40,930 bases of DNA from a bacterium. GTDB taxonomy: Bacteria > Zhuqueibacterota > QNDG01. Under the pieces are notes generated by a model, which searched no databases, was not told the origin of the DNA, and saw nothing but the letters and a program-made list of their open reading frames with translations. The stretch lies in NCBI GenBank assembly GCA_021158245.1, contig JAGGVB010000171.1, positions 1 through 40,930 of the forward strand, written 5' to 3'. Of this stretch, positions 13,869-37,242 are shown in pieces. Position 1 is the stretch's first letter, and every line of letters begins with the position of its first letter. Position numbers and translations under genes: made by a program.

Positions 13869-14429
13869 ATGAAATATATTTGTGCTGCATGCAATAAATC
13901 AGTTGATCTTAAGAATCTGTTTATCATTACTGTTAAGAATAACGGTGAGATATCTCTGCTTGATACCGTGAGGGAAAATTCTCAAAATATTTTCGTATGC
14001 AGAAATCCTGAGTGTCTTTCAATATTATTTAAAAAGGGTATCTTGAACAATGCTGATAAAAAACTCAGGAATAAATTCTTAAAAGAACTGAAAATGAACA
14101 CTTCCGATGGGAGTAAAACGGAAAAATTTCTGGGAATGGGTATAAAATCAGGAAAAATAATAAGGGGATTTACTTCTGTAGTTTCATCAATTAAAAAAGA
14201 TGAAGTGAAACTTATTGTAATAAGCAGGATACAAAAAGAAAATACCAGAAAAAAGCTTAATGCACTGGTCAAAAAAACAAGAATTGAAATATTTGAGTAT
14301 AGGGGAAAAAGAGAATTTGATAGAGTTGTAGGAAAACCTAACTGCACATGTGTAGGAGTAAAGGACAAAACATACGCTGATTTGATTAAAAAGGAATTAA
14401 ATGAAATCTATGATACACATTCTTCCTGA
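13869..14429 (+). CDS. YlxR (DUF448)-L7Ae/YlxQ-like fusion, probable RNA-binding protein
   Basis: Residues 1-70 resemble YlxR: an N-terminal CxxC (Cys5, Cys8), then NIFVCRNPECL (Cys44, Cys49) and a basic helix, consistent with a four-Cys metal site. Residues about 85-180 resemble the L7Ae/L30e family, as in YlxQ: FLGMGIKSGKIIRGF, then KLIVISRIQKEN, ending in a GVKDKTYADLI segment. YlxR and YlxQ are normally separate neighbours in nusA-infB operons; here they form one chain upstream of mutL, overlapping it by 29 bases. An RNA-binding role is family inference. There is no clear ribosome site before the ATG. Confidence 0.8.
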   Translation: MKYICAACNKSVDLKNLFIITVKNNGEISLLDTVRENSQNIFVCRNPECLSILFKKGILNNADKKLRNKFLKELKMNTSDGSKTEKFLGMGIKSGKIIRGFTSVVSSIKKDEVKLIVISRIQKENTRKKLNALVKKTRIEIFEYRGKREFDRVVGKPNCTCVGVKDKTYADLIKKELNEIYDTHSS

Positions 14430-17199: not shown

Positions 17200-17799
17200 A
17201 TGGGTAAGGTTTATGATCTTATAATTACCCGCCGATCTGTAAGAAAGTTTTTACAGTTGCCAATTAAAGATGACTTGTTGAAAAAATTTGTTAATGCTGC
17301 CAGGCTTGCACCATCAGCTTCAAACATCCAGCCATGTGAATATTTAATTGTAAACGATAAAGAGAAGGTAAAGAATGTTTTTACCGGCTTAAAATGGGCA
17401 GGATATATAAATCCCGAAGGGAATCCGGAAAAGGGAGAAGAGCCGGTCGCATATATTATTGTACTTATTGACCTTAAAAAGAAAAAGAAATCAGGAGAAG
17501 TTGATGCTGCTGCGGGAATTCAGAATATTCTTCTATCCGCATGGGAGGAAGGAGTGGGATCTTGCTGGATTAAATCAGTAAAAATCAGGCATATCAAAAA
17601 AATATTTCGTATACCCCATAATTTAAGGCTGGATTCAGTTATAGCGCTTGGTTATCCTTCGGAGGAACCTGTAATTGAAAATGCGGATAATTCAATAAAA
17701 TACTGGAAAGATAAAAACGGTATTTTACATGTTCCAAAAAGAAAATTGGAAGACATTGTACATTTTAACATATATGGAAAATTTAATAAATCTGTTTAG
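17200..17799 (+). CDS. Nitroreductase-family FMN oxidoreductase
   Basis: The 199-residue protein fits the nitroreductase family, which uses FMN and NAD(P)H to reduce varied substrates. It begins with the FMN-contact RRSVRKF, continues with AARLAPSASNIQPCEYLIV, and has AAGIQNILLSAWEEGVGSCWI plus ALGYPSEEPV toward the C terminus; these are standard nitroreductase landmarks. There is no ferredoxin domain. AGGAGG before the ATG is strong. The physiological substrate is not predictable. Confidence 0.85.
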   Translation: MGKVYDLIITRRSVRKFLQLPIKDDLLKKFVNAARLAPSASNIQPCEYLIVNDKEKVKNVFTGLKWAGYINPEGNPEKGEEPVAYIIVLIDLKKKKKSGEVDAAAGIQNILLSAWEEGVGSCWIKSVKIRHIKKIFRIPHNLRLDSVIALGYPSEEPVIENADNSIKYWKDKNGILHVPKRKLEDIVHFNIYGKFNKSV

Positions 17800-17830
17800 G
17801 TAGTTGATTGAACTCATCAGGGAGATAAAA

Positions 17831-18319
17831 TTGTCTGACCGAAATAATAATAGAAAAAGAGAAAAGAGAGGGTATAGAAAGAGAGTTGAGATAGATGAAG
17901 AAATACTGTCTCTTGTAAAAGATGCTGAAAACAAGTTGTTTAATTCCATGCAGCCTGTAATAATTAAAAACCTGAATTCGTTTCAAAGAAAACAGGTTTA
18001 TAACTATTTTGAAAACAGGAATGGAGAGTATTTAATTAAAACTTACAGGGAGGAAGAAGATGTTATAATAAAAATATACCCTGTAGGCAGATTGAGAAGG
18101 CTTGCGGAGCAAAAAACACAGGAAGTACTTATGAACGGAAGAGAAGAAGAACTTCCTGTAATGGGGGCTTTTGAACGTTTTATTATTCATGATTATCTTA
18201 AACAGCGGAATGGAATTAAAACACTGTCTGTAGGAGTGCAGGGAGAGGACAGGAGAGTCAAAATTCTTCCTGTTTTCGGAAGAACGTTAAAGAAAGCAAA
18301 AAGGAAGCTTACCCGGTAA
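17831..18319 (+). CDS. Protein with two tandem R3H-like nucleic-acid-binding domains
   Basis: A basic N-terminal tail (RNNNRKREKRGYRKR) is followed by two similar modules. The second, about residues 108-150, is a clear R3H domain with Arg116-x3-His120 in FERFIIHDYLKQRNG and the RRVKILP strand. The first, about 45-86, aligns with it (FQRKQVYNYFENRNG...IIKIYPV) but has Tyr in place of the His. R3H binds single-stranded nucleic acid, as in Jag/SpoIIIJ-associated proteins, but no KH domain is present. I use TTG at 17831 because AGGGAG lies 6 bases upstream; TTG at 17804 is the alternative. The receiver gene follows after 15 bases. Confidence 0.75.
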   Translation: MSDRNNNRKREKRGYRKRVEIDEEILSLVKDAENKLFNSMQPVIIKNLNSFQRKQVYNYFENRNGEYLIKTYREEEDVIIKIYPVGRLRRLAEQKTQEVLMNGREEELPVMGAFERFIIHDYLKQRNGIKTLSVGVQGEDRRVKILPVFGRTLKKAKRKLTR

Positions 18320-18334
18320 ACATAGGAGTGAAAT

Positions 18335-18709
18335 ATGAAAAAGAGGGTCATGATAGTTGATGACGACACCTCCGTTCTTAATGTTGTAAGGAAAACTCTG
18401 GAAAGTAACGATATTAATGTTACTGCAGTAACAAGCGGCAGGGAATGCCTTGATGAGCTTGAAAAGGGGTTTAGCGGCGTAATACTTATGGATGTTGTAA
18501 TGCCTGAAATGGATGGATGGGATACGATCAAAGAAATTATTGACAGAGGTTACAAAGATAAAGTAATTATAAGTATGCTTACAGGCACAGGCGAACCGGA
18601 TAAAAAGATGGATAGCTTGAAGGAATATGTTTTAGATTATATAAAGAAACCTTTTAAAATAGAAACGTTATTGTCAGTAGTTAAAGAATATTTAACGTAT
18701 ATAAAATAA
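18335..18709 (+). CDS. Single-domain CheY-like response regulator
   Basis: This 124-residue protein is a stand-alone receiver domain. The acidic triad is DD at 9-10 and phosphoacceptor Asp53 in VILMDVVMPEMDG; the switch Thr lies in SMLTGTG and the conserved Lys in YIKKPF. There is no output domain. It sits 15 bases after the R3H gene and 15 bases before the CheB-domain gene, a spacing that implies one transcript. It may signal through CheB or through R3H by protein contact; that is inference. Confidence 0.92.
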   Translation: MKKRVMIVDDDTSVLNVVRKTLESNDINVTAVTSGRECLDELEKGFSGVILMDVVMPEMDGWDTIKEIIDRGYKDKVIISMLTGTGEPDKKMDSLKEYVLDYIKKPFKIETLLSVVKEYLTYIK

Positions 18710-18724
18710 AGGGCATCCTATAAT

Positions 18725-19309
18725 ATGAGATCGTATAATTTAGTTGTAATAGGCGCTTCTGCCGGTGGCCCGAGAATATTACATGAAATATTTTCAGGTG
18801 TACCGCTGTTGAACGGAGGGATTATTCTTGTCCAGCATATGCCCAAATTTGTTAACGAAGCTTTTTGTGAAAATATTCAGAAACACACGGATTTAAGAGT
18901 TAAACTCGCAGAGCAGGGAGAAGAGATTAAATCGGGGAATCTATATGTAGCGCCAAGTGAAGTTCACCTTTCACTGAGAGAAAACAGATATTTTAAACTG
19001 CGAAAGGGTGAAAAAGTTAATTACGTCTGTCCATCAATTGATGTTACAATGAAATCCCTGTCTAATGATAATTCAATAAAAAAAATGGGTATTATTCTGA
19101 CTGGAATGGGCTCAGACGGAGCTGCTGGTATTTGTCATATGAAGAAAATAGATGCTACAACAATTGCTCAGAATGAGGAAACAAGTATTGTGTATGGTAT
19201 GCCGAATAAGGCGATGGAAACAGGCTGTATTGATTTTGAATTATCTCCCGAAGAGATAAAAAACAAACTGATTGCTTTTCTTGGAATTTTAAAGGAAAGG
19301 ACATTCTAA
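18725..19309 (+). CDS. Receiver-less CheB-type methylesterase domain protein
   Basis: The 194 residues correspond to the CheB catalytic domain only: it removes methyl esters from, or deamidates, glutamyl residues of chemoreceptors. The catalytic triad is visible as Ser12 (GASAGGP), His38 (VQHMP) and Asp131 (GMGSDGAAG). The usual N-terminal receiver is missing, but a separate receiver gene lies immediately upstream. No chemoreceptor, CheR, CheA or CheW is in the window. The ribosome site is weak. Confidence 0.88.
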   Translation: MRSYNLVVIGASAGGPRILHEIFSGVPLLNGGIILVQHMPKFVNEAFCENIQKHTDLRVKLAEQGEEIKSGNLYVAPSEVHLSLRENRYFKLRKGEKVNYVCPSIDVTMKSLSNDNSIKKMGIILTGMGSDGAAGICHMKKIDATTIAQNEETSIVYGMPNKAMETGCIDFELSPEEIKNKLIAFLGILKERTF

Positions 19310-35624: not shown

Positions 35625-35653
35625 TTGACTATCATACGAAAAATTGTTAAGTT
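35625..35653 (+). promoter_or_regulatory. Possible promoter for the PorX-like gene
   Basis: TTGACT (35625-35630; 5 of 6) is followed after 17 bases by TAAGTT (35648-35653; 3 of 6). The start of transcription would fall about 22 bases before the ATG at 35683. The -10 is weak. Confidence 0.35.
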
Positions 35654-35682
35654 TTATAGCTTTTAAGGTACTAGATCTAAAT

Positions 35683-37242
35683 ATGAATGGAAACAAAGGG
35701 AACATTCTGTGGGCAGATGATGAGATCGATCATCTGAGATCGCATATAATTTTTTTACGGGAAAAAGGTTATAGTGTAACACCTGTTACTAATGCTGAAG
35801 ATGCCATTTCTCTGGTAAAAAAAGAAAGATATGATATTCTTCTTCTTGATGAAATGATGCCTGGTATGGACGGCCTGGAAGCATTGAATAAAATTAAAAT
35901 TATTGACCCGTCTATACCTATTGTTATGATTACTAAATCGGAAGAAGAAGATCTGATGGAAGAGGCAATCGGTGGTAAAATTGAAGATTATCTGACAAAG
36001 CCGGTTAATCCAAGCCAGATTCTGTCTTCATGCAAAAGAATCCTTGAAAAACGGCGTATAGCAAGAGATAAGATTACCAGAGATTATATTGAAGAATTCT
36101 CTGAAATTACAAATTTATTACAGGGGCAGTTGGATTTTAAAAAGTGGGCAGAGATACATCTTAAACTCTCTGAAAGATATTTAAACCTTGATGAACACAA
36201 TGACCTTGGCTTAAATCAGACCCTTGAAGATCAGAGAGCGGAATGCAATCATTCATTCGCACGTTTTATTGAAAGCAACTATAGGGAATGGATAAATTCG
36301 GATAAAAGGCCTGTTCTATCAACTGATGTAATGAAAAACTATGTATTCCCATTTCTTAAAAAGGGCGAAAAAGTTCTTTTTATTGTCATAGATAACCTCA
36401 GGCTTGATCAATGGCTTGCCATTGAACCTATGCTGTACGATTTTGTAAAAATTGAAAGGAATTATCAGTGTTCTTTAATCCCCTCTGCTACGCCATACAG
36501 CCGGAATAGTATTTTTTCCGGGCTATTCCCATCTCAGATAAAAAAACAATTTCCTGAATATTGGATGAAGAACGCTGATTCTGAGGCAAGTTTGAACAAA
36601 TTTGAGTATGAATTTTTAAAATTTCAGGTAAATAAAAACCATATCAATGTTAAAGGCAATCCCCAATATTTAAAAATCATTACCAGGGAAGAGGCAAACC
36701 ATGCACTTATTCATTTTAAAAATATGGTAAATAATCAGCTCATAGCAATGGTTTTTAATTTTATTGATATAATTTCACACAGAAGGAATGATTCTGAAAT
36801 AATTCATGAAATTGTACCTGATGAATCAGCATATAGATCCCTTACAAAATCGTGGTTTAAGAATTCGTCTCTGTTTGAAATTATAAAAAAAGCAGCTCAG
36901 GAAAAAATTATAACCGTACTCACTACTGATCACGGATCTATTCGGGTTAAGAGGGGGACAACTATTTATGCTGACAGATTTGCCTCTACAAATTTAAGAT
37001 ACAAATATGGAAGAGGGATTCGTGCTGAAGGTAAGGGTTTTATTGAAATAAACAGCCCTGAAGAATATGGTTTGCCTGTCCAGAGCCTGAATACAAATTA
37101 TATAATTGCAACTGAGGATGTTTTTTTTGTTTATCCGACAAATTACCATAAATATCTGACTCTTTTTAAAAACAGCTTTCAGCATGGAGGAATTTCTCTT
37201 GAGGAGATGATTCTTCCTGTTATTACAATGACTGCCAAATAA
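35683..37242 (+). CDS. porX: PorX-type response regulator with PglZ/alkaline-phosphatase-like output domain
   Basis: The 519-residue protein has a receiver at 1-125 (DD at 12-13, phosphoacceptor Asp56, Lys106), a helical linker (about 125-220), and a C-terminal PglZ/alkaline-phosphatase-fold domain. Metal-site candidates are Asp237 and Asp242 in VIDNLRLDQW, nucleophile Thr270 in PSATPYSRN, and TTDHGS near the C terminus. This is the architecture of Porphyromonas PorX (518 residues), a regulator of type IX secretion whose C-terminal domain hydrolyses oligonucleotides. The frame is open to a TTG at 35644; I start at the ATG at 35683, matching PorX. No histidine kinase PorY or type IX genes are visible. 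Confidence 0.9.
   Translation: MNGNKGNILWADDEIDHLRSHIIFLREKGYSVTPVTNAEDAISLVKKERYDILLLDEMMPGMDGLEALNKIKIIDPSIPIVMITKSEEEDLMEEAIGGKIEDYLTKPVNPSQILSSCKRILEKRRIARDKITRDYIEEFSEITNLLQGQLDFKKWAEIHLKLSERYLNLDEHNDLGLNQTLEDQRAECNHSFARFIESNYREWINSDKRPVLSTDVMKNYVFPFLKKGEKVLFIVIDNLRLDQWLAIEPMLYDFVKIERNYQCSLIPSATPYSRNSIFSGLFPSQIKKQFPEYWMKNADSEASLNKFEYEFLKFQVNKNHINVKGNPQYLKIITREEANHALIHFKNMVNNQLIAMVFNFIDIISHRRNDSEIIHEIVPDESAYRSLTKSWFKNSSLFEIIKKAAQEKIITVLTTDHGSIRVKRGTTIYADRFASTNLRYKYGRGIRAEGKGFIEINSPEEYGLPVQSLNTNYIIATEDVFFVYPTNYHKYLTLFKNSFQHGGISLEEMILPVITMTAK

Follow-up and report, generated by a model that had tools for sequence, protein, structure and literature searches.

Three genes on one strand of the window (the whole stretch of DNA analysed, 40,930 nucleotides, contig C171 of genome G000) encode a protein with two R3H domains, a stand-alone CheY-like receiver, and a CheB catalytic domain that stands by itself (Table 1). 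The genes are separated from each other by gaps of 15 bases, and both the coordinates and the gaps given in an earlier note, which had been made from the sequence alone, were correct. The R3H start codon at 17831 is preceded by AGGGAGA, with an alternative TTG at 17804, and a nitroreductase-like gene ends 31 bases upstream of that start. Scans for promoters and terminators around the three genes (hereafter the triad) yielded results at the level of shuffled sequence.

Table 1. The triad and the gene preceding it in the window.
Feature	Position	Strand	Evidence and remarks
BluB/nitroreductase-like protein	17200..17799	+	Pfam Nitroreductase 3.6e-25; tblastn neighbours
Tandem-R3H protein, 162 aa	17831..18319	+	TTG start; Pfam R3H 1.8e-14, two stretches
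Stand-alone CheY-like receiver, 124 aa	18335..18709	+	Pfam Response_reg 6.1e-24
Lone CheB methylesterase/deamidase domain, 194 aa	18725..19309	+	Pfam CheB_methylest 3.9e-54

The tandem-R3H protein and its genomic partners

The earlier note had read the first protein as carrying tandem R3H domains, and this was borne out by several lines of evidence. In addition to the two stretches matched by the Pfam profile, the halves of the protein were mutually homologous when compared profile versus profile (hhalign, E 1.1e-7), in an alignment that placed the two RxxxH motifs opposite each other, and the AlphaFold2 model (pLDDT 88.9, pTM 0.77) contained the order helix-strand-helix-strand-strand twice. 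The protein most resembles KhpB/EloR/Jag and is likely to bind RNA. As in that family, an R3H domain is located at the C-terminus (Pfam match at residues 88-146). The T. thermophilus KhpB/EloR structure 9lrg was matched by profile with an E-value of 6.8e-14 and was, together with 9lri, the top PDB fold match of the model. A KhpA-type KH protein was also present in all 12 genomes of the order to which the window belongs, an order of uncultured bacteria in a KSB1-type phylum. However, the window protein lacks a KH-II domain before the R3H domain (there was no Pfam match to a KH domain at E<=1) and has a second R3H domain in its place. The KhpB-type family NF041568 was matched at 145-201 of 203 and scored 38.1 bits against an equivalog cut-off of 145, and the overall TM of the fold matches was low, at 0.40 when scaled to the query length. 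This probably reflects the first half, which is an R3H domain in the window protein but a KH domain in KhpB. The domain make-up of pneumococcal KhpB/EloR, including the KH half, is among the subjects covered in PMC6403258. Literature searches turned up no paper on this R3H family, no publication on CheB together with R3H as judged by title, none on R3H with Mpl and peptidoglycan, and no structure paper on T. thermophilus KhpB.

The earlier note had allowed for the gene order being unique to this genome, which proved not to be the case. The R3H, receiver, and CheB genes were colinear on one strand in 12/12 genomes of the order, which represent six families, with gaps of 5-113 bases and with proteins 42-75% identical to those of the window; contig ends cut the R3H gene in G001 and the CheB gene in G004. 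The cluster of three genes is therefore a conserved, operon-like unit. The flanks were less constant than the triad itself. A gene for an EamA protein was next upstream in six of the 12 genomes and a transketolase gene next downstream in five, counts in which the upstream side was unreadable in G001 and the downstream side in G004. A nitroreductase-like gene occurred upstream in 4/12 genomes, with EamA between it and the triad in two of them. Within the phylum, the receiver family was found only in the order (scores of at least 156 bits, the next being 88, over 81 genomes with at most 54 first-pass candidates per genome scored, so that some relative may have escaped), as was the triad CheB family (at least 238 bits, the next being 183, over 82 genomes). 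Each of the 12 genomes was found to have a single R3H protein.

Outside the order, the same R3H family has another neighbor. An R3H homologue was detected in 50 of the 59 genomes searched, the window's own included, and in all 38 R3H-bearing genomes outside the order it was located 22-547 bases downstream of mpl, the gene of murein peptide ligase, on the same strand. These distances were taken between match ends, and in three of the 38 (G024, G047, and G049) the mpl match was partial and below cut-off. The three mpl proteins that were tested exceeded the NCBIfam equivalog cut-off. Among the nine genomes without an R3H homologue, six had mpl and three had neither gene. A scan of a genome collection with the R3H protein gave 38 loci, namely nine triads, 27 loci with mpl upstream, one truncated locus, and one from another phylum with a 60-residue match; the nine triads overlap with the 12 genomes above and are not independent of them. 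The records were titled KSB1, Calditrichaeota, Caldithrix, Bacteroidetes (one, truncated), or simply 'bacterium'. At one locus (L084:6369-8489), Mpl and the tandem-R3H protein shared one open frame of 707 residues, which is either a natural fusion or the result of a missing stop. The window protein is homologous to the mpl-linked proteins over its full length, but its gene is not beside mpl, and no mpl over cut-off was found in any of the 12 genomes of the order, six of which are less than 90% complete. The mpl match in G000 was MurC, which scored 555.9 bits against the murC profile and 220.6 against mpl (cut-off 388.7). Given the absence of mpl over cut-off and the presence of R3H together with receiver and CheB, the order appears from these searches to have lost mpl, with R3H gaining a new fixed partner. 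So strict a choice of partner (mpl in 38/38, receiver-CheB in 12/12) ties the R3H family to cell-wall recycling and provides a clear handle on its function.

These distributions also bear on whether the linkage means anything at all. It is unlikely, in our judgement, that the three genes have no shared function and stayed together only by descent in a locus that never rearranged. Such an account fits with the twelve genomes coming from a single order and with flanks that are partly common too (EamA, transketolase, and nitroreductase), but each flanking joint was kept in at most six of the 12 genomes, whereas both internal joints were kept in all of them at the identities given above, and the partner found outside the order is a different one that is equally fixed.

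The mpl-linked and the triad R3H proteins were then compared residue by residue. The alignment held 34 proteins, of which 10 represented the 12 triads (G004, a near-copy of G009, and the truncated G001 were omitted) and 24 the 27 mpl-linked loci (L079, L080, and L088 were not entered); the truncated L100 and the 60-residue match L102, from Doudnabacteria, were also omitted. The C-terminal RxxxH motif was kept in 34/34 proteins and is intact in the window protein (R116/H120). The N-terminal motif was kept in 24/24 mpl-linked proteins, but among the triad proteins it was kept in five and degraded in the other five, including that of the window, in which it reads R53/Y57.

The receiver and the lone CheB

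The CheY-like receiver named in the earlier note was confirmed by a Response_reg match spanning residues 5-116. The acidic pair, Asp53, Thr83, and Lys105 were present in 10/10 aligned sequences; for both the receiver and CheB, 10 of the 12 triads were aligned, and the motifs of the two omitted (G004 and G009) were seen separately. The receiver thus has the D/D/T/K phosphorylation residues of chemotaxis CheY, but it is not encoded in a chemotaxis cluster. Against 3cg4, which comes from Methanospirillum hungatei and is likewise a stand-alone receiver, a profile of the receiver family scored 151 bits, and the model of the G002 ortholog was 44% identical to this structure over 126 residues, although 3cg4 is an archaeal protein. 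Among the response regulators of archaea, about 40% are stand-alone receivers (PMC5847659). Since an archaeal protein belongs to the receiver family and no archaeon was seen by title among the records listed in the R3H scan, the conserved surface of the receiver is probably older than its link with R3H. A possible place in a defence system was rejected, the one PADLOC match being weak and to the receiver only (1.7e-4). In plasmid searches with the receiver and CheB every match was below 60% identity, and those listed were below 40%.

The third protein was likewise as described, a CheB without a receiver: CheB_methylest was the only domain matched in its frame, and the match covered positions 1-174 of the 174 in the profile. 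Aligned to PDB 3sft and 1a2o, the protein shows a complete catalytic domain of the ordinary kind, with Ser12, His38, and Asp131 present in 10/10 aligned sequences, and the model of the G002 ortholog could be aligned with 3sft, the CheB of T. maritima, over 184 residues at 1.7 A and 39% identity. It differs from ordinary CheB in having no N-terminal receiver and in not being encoded beside CheR or CheA. CheB without a receiver is one of two architectures described as typical of archaea (PMC5847659). In the CheB tree, the triad CheBs and the CheB of a second pair in G006 grouped in a single clade (100/99), the stem of which measured 0.99 changes per column. This clade joined the rest of the tree at an open fork that also held full-length CheB rows, so that the lone CheB may descend from a full-length CheB that lost its receiver domain long ago. 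The phylum has two further kinds of lone CheB, each forming a clade of its own, separate from that of the triad. They are receiver-less as well, but one kind (L155 and L156) is encoded in a chemotaxis operon with CheR adjacent, and the other (L157-L159) in a hybrid kinase-CheR-CheB cluster, both without R3H; the CheR genes beside them were named by eye and one was confirmed by NCBIfam.

The earlier note had likened the pair to a deconstructed CheB, and for the receiver this does not hold. The profile that scored 151 bits on 3cg4 reached at most 50 bits on the receiver domains of full-length CheBs (34 distinct ones, taken from loci of the phylum), which ruled out the receiver as a detached CheB receiver domain. 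That an ordinary receiver-CheB gene broke into two parts and came to lie next to R3H is accordingly highly improbable, even though in the window CheB continues the frame of the receiver after only one stop codon and the tree is compatible with descent of the catalytic domain from full-length CheB long ago. The frame was shared in 2/12 triads, which is what chance would give. We also modelled the G002 pair as one chain, translated through the stop codon that separates its two genes (pLDDT 89.0, pTM 0.82). Compared with 1a2o, 297 residues of this model aligned at 13.1 A rmsd, against 1.7-2.5 A for the single domains, and in the VIA-align list for the model the full-length CheBs 6ymz and 1a2o aligned only at 13.1 A. 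The arrangement of receiver and catalytic domain seen in CheB was not reproduced in this read-through model.

The second pair in G006 (L161:5299-6369) consists of a receiver and a CheB without R3H, and the catalytic His of this CheB is replaced by Gln (VQQM), which suggests that it is perhaps a non-enzymatic copy. Its occurrence without R3H indicates that a receiver-CheB pair can exist alone.

Chemosensory genes and the possible role of the triad

The earlier note saw no chemoreceptor, CheA, or CheR near the cluster, in agreement with our finding that none of the MCP, CheR, and CheA dimer domain matches of G000 were on contig C171. Across the order, CheR or CheA-dimer matches on the contigs bearing the triad numbered 0/12, and an MCP match occurred on that of G009 only, on the opposite strand at a distance of one gene. 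This MCP-domain protein (L160:2650-5982) has 1111 residues and an N-terminus that by eye is like a sensor propeller, and a transketolase gene lies between its gene and the triad. Elsewhere in the genomes, MCP, CheR, and full-length CheB were found in 12/12 and the CheA dimer domain in 8/12. G000 has three full-length CheBs, located in clusters with CheR, MCP, CheW, or CheA genes, some of which were named by eye. One CheA of this genome (locus L164, contig C58) has Hpt, ATPase, CheW, and receiver domains and no H-kinase_dim Pfam match, so the four of the 12 genomes in which the dimer domain was not found may carry such a CheA. The CheB of the L164 cluster fell into a clade with rows from 11/12 genomes of the order.

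Several further observations were made on these genes. One full-length CheB was 98% identical between G000 (L001, C88) and G001 (L049, C12), which belong to the same genus, as against 64-75% identity for the triad proteins of the two genomes; the chemotaxis cluster concerned may reflect recent exchange or wrong binning. G000 has a short lone CheR of about 200 residues (L162:13955-14554). G001 has a short lone CheR too, and its contig carries a CheA-dimer match at a distance of about 1 kb.

The earlier note reckoned with complete chemotaxis operons elsewhere that would explain the receiver and CheB as ordinary components. This was correct in part: such clusters exist, and the triad CheB may consequently act on ordinary chemoreceptors, but the clusters carry full-length CheBs of their own. 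The receiver and the lone CheB could then form an accessory adaptation arm of the chemosensory systems, in which CheB would demethylate or deamidate MCPs, the receiver would serve as a modulator or phosphate sink, and R3H would be only co-transcribed. We regard this as possible, though somewhat doubtful. It agrees with the chemosensory genes of the 12 genomes, the CheA of G000 without a dimer match among them, with the intact catalytic residues of the lone CheB, with the G006 pair that has no R3H, and with the MCP gene close to the triad in G009. However, a full-length CheB is already present in every genome, the lone CheB belongs to a separate clade with a long stem, the contigs bearing the triad have no CheR or CheA-dimer match and, apart from that of G009, no MCP match, and no reason is given for the linkage to R3H in 12/12 genomes.

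The reading we put forward, tentatively and at somewhat less than even confidence, is that the receiver-CheB pair is co-expressed with a KhpB-like RNA-binding regulator and plausibly controls it. A histidine kinase encoded elsewhere, CheA or another, would phosphorylate the receiver, which would act in trans on the lone CheB in the manner of the built-in receiver of ordinary CheB. CheB would then hydrolyse methyl esters of Glu or amides of Gln in a partner protein. The R3H protein would be the RNA-binding output, either as a direct target of CheB or the receiver or as a protein controlled through shared expression, and the net effect would be signal-dependent control at the RNA level, probably of envelope growth. 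The link to envelope growth is suggested by the mpl neighborhood outside the order and by the precedent of EloR, an R3H protein that regulates cell elongation (PMC6403258). Jag appears as the substrate of a phosphatase in the title of PMC5078927. The link to nucleic-acid binding that the earlier note suggested is thus plausible. A direct action of the pair on R3H is putative, and chemoreceptors are a near-equal candidate for the substrate.

A link between R3H and the pair is plausibly supported by their 12/12 linkage while the flanks turn over, by the presence of a sole R3H protein per genome, and by the habit of this family of keeping one fixed partner. The intact residues of both enzyme and receiver also fit the reading put forward. 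Against the link are the G006 pair without R3H and the archaeal member of the receiver family, as well as the degraded N-terminal R3H motif in 5/10 triad proteins; the MCP gene near the triad in G009 fits a chemosensory role. If the pair does act on R3H, CheB-type Glu/Gln chemistry would gain a target outside chemoreceptors, and two-component signalling would have a route to RNA regulation.

In chemoreceptors CheB deamidates Gln to Glu, and the genes of these receptors specify Gln at the residues that CheB converts. We considered a narrower form of the proposed control, in which the tandem-R3H protein is itself what the lone CheB deamidates or demethylates, with the receiver in control. Position 52 of R3H, just before the Arg of the N-terminal motif, was Glu in 23/24 mpl-linked proteins and Gln in none of the 24, whereas 8/10 triad proteins had Gln, the other two having His and Glu. 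Position 94 was Gln in 8/10 triad versus 1/24 mpl-linked proteins, and position 97 in 10/10 versus 4/24. At the chosen cut-off 16 R3H positions differed between the two groups, three of them towards Gln and 13 otherwise. The exchange of Glu for Gln is a common conservative one, half of the triad proteins have a degraded N-terminal motif, and the switches, which we do not regard as significant without a control, are a weak lead only. By eye, Q94 and Q97 did not fit the MCP methylation-site consensus. CheB is distinctly unlikely to modify the R3H protein in this manner; if it did, covalent adaptation of the chemotaxis type would have moved from receptors to an RNA-binding regulator.

Two other genes of the window were recorded in passing. 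The protein encoded at 13869-14429 has a weak YlxR match, just below cut-off, joined to an L7Ae domain, and its frame overlaps the beginning of a gene that by eye is mutL-like. At 35644-37239 a receiver is joined to a PglZ domain, an architecture that we take to be PorX-like.
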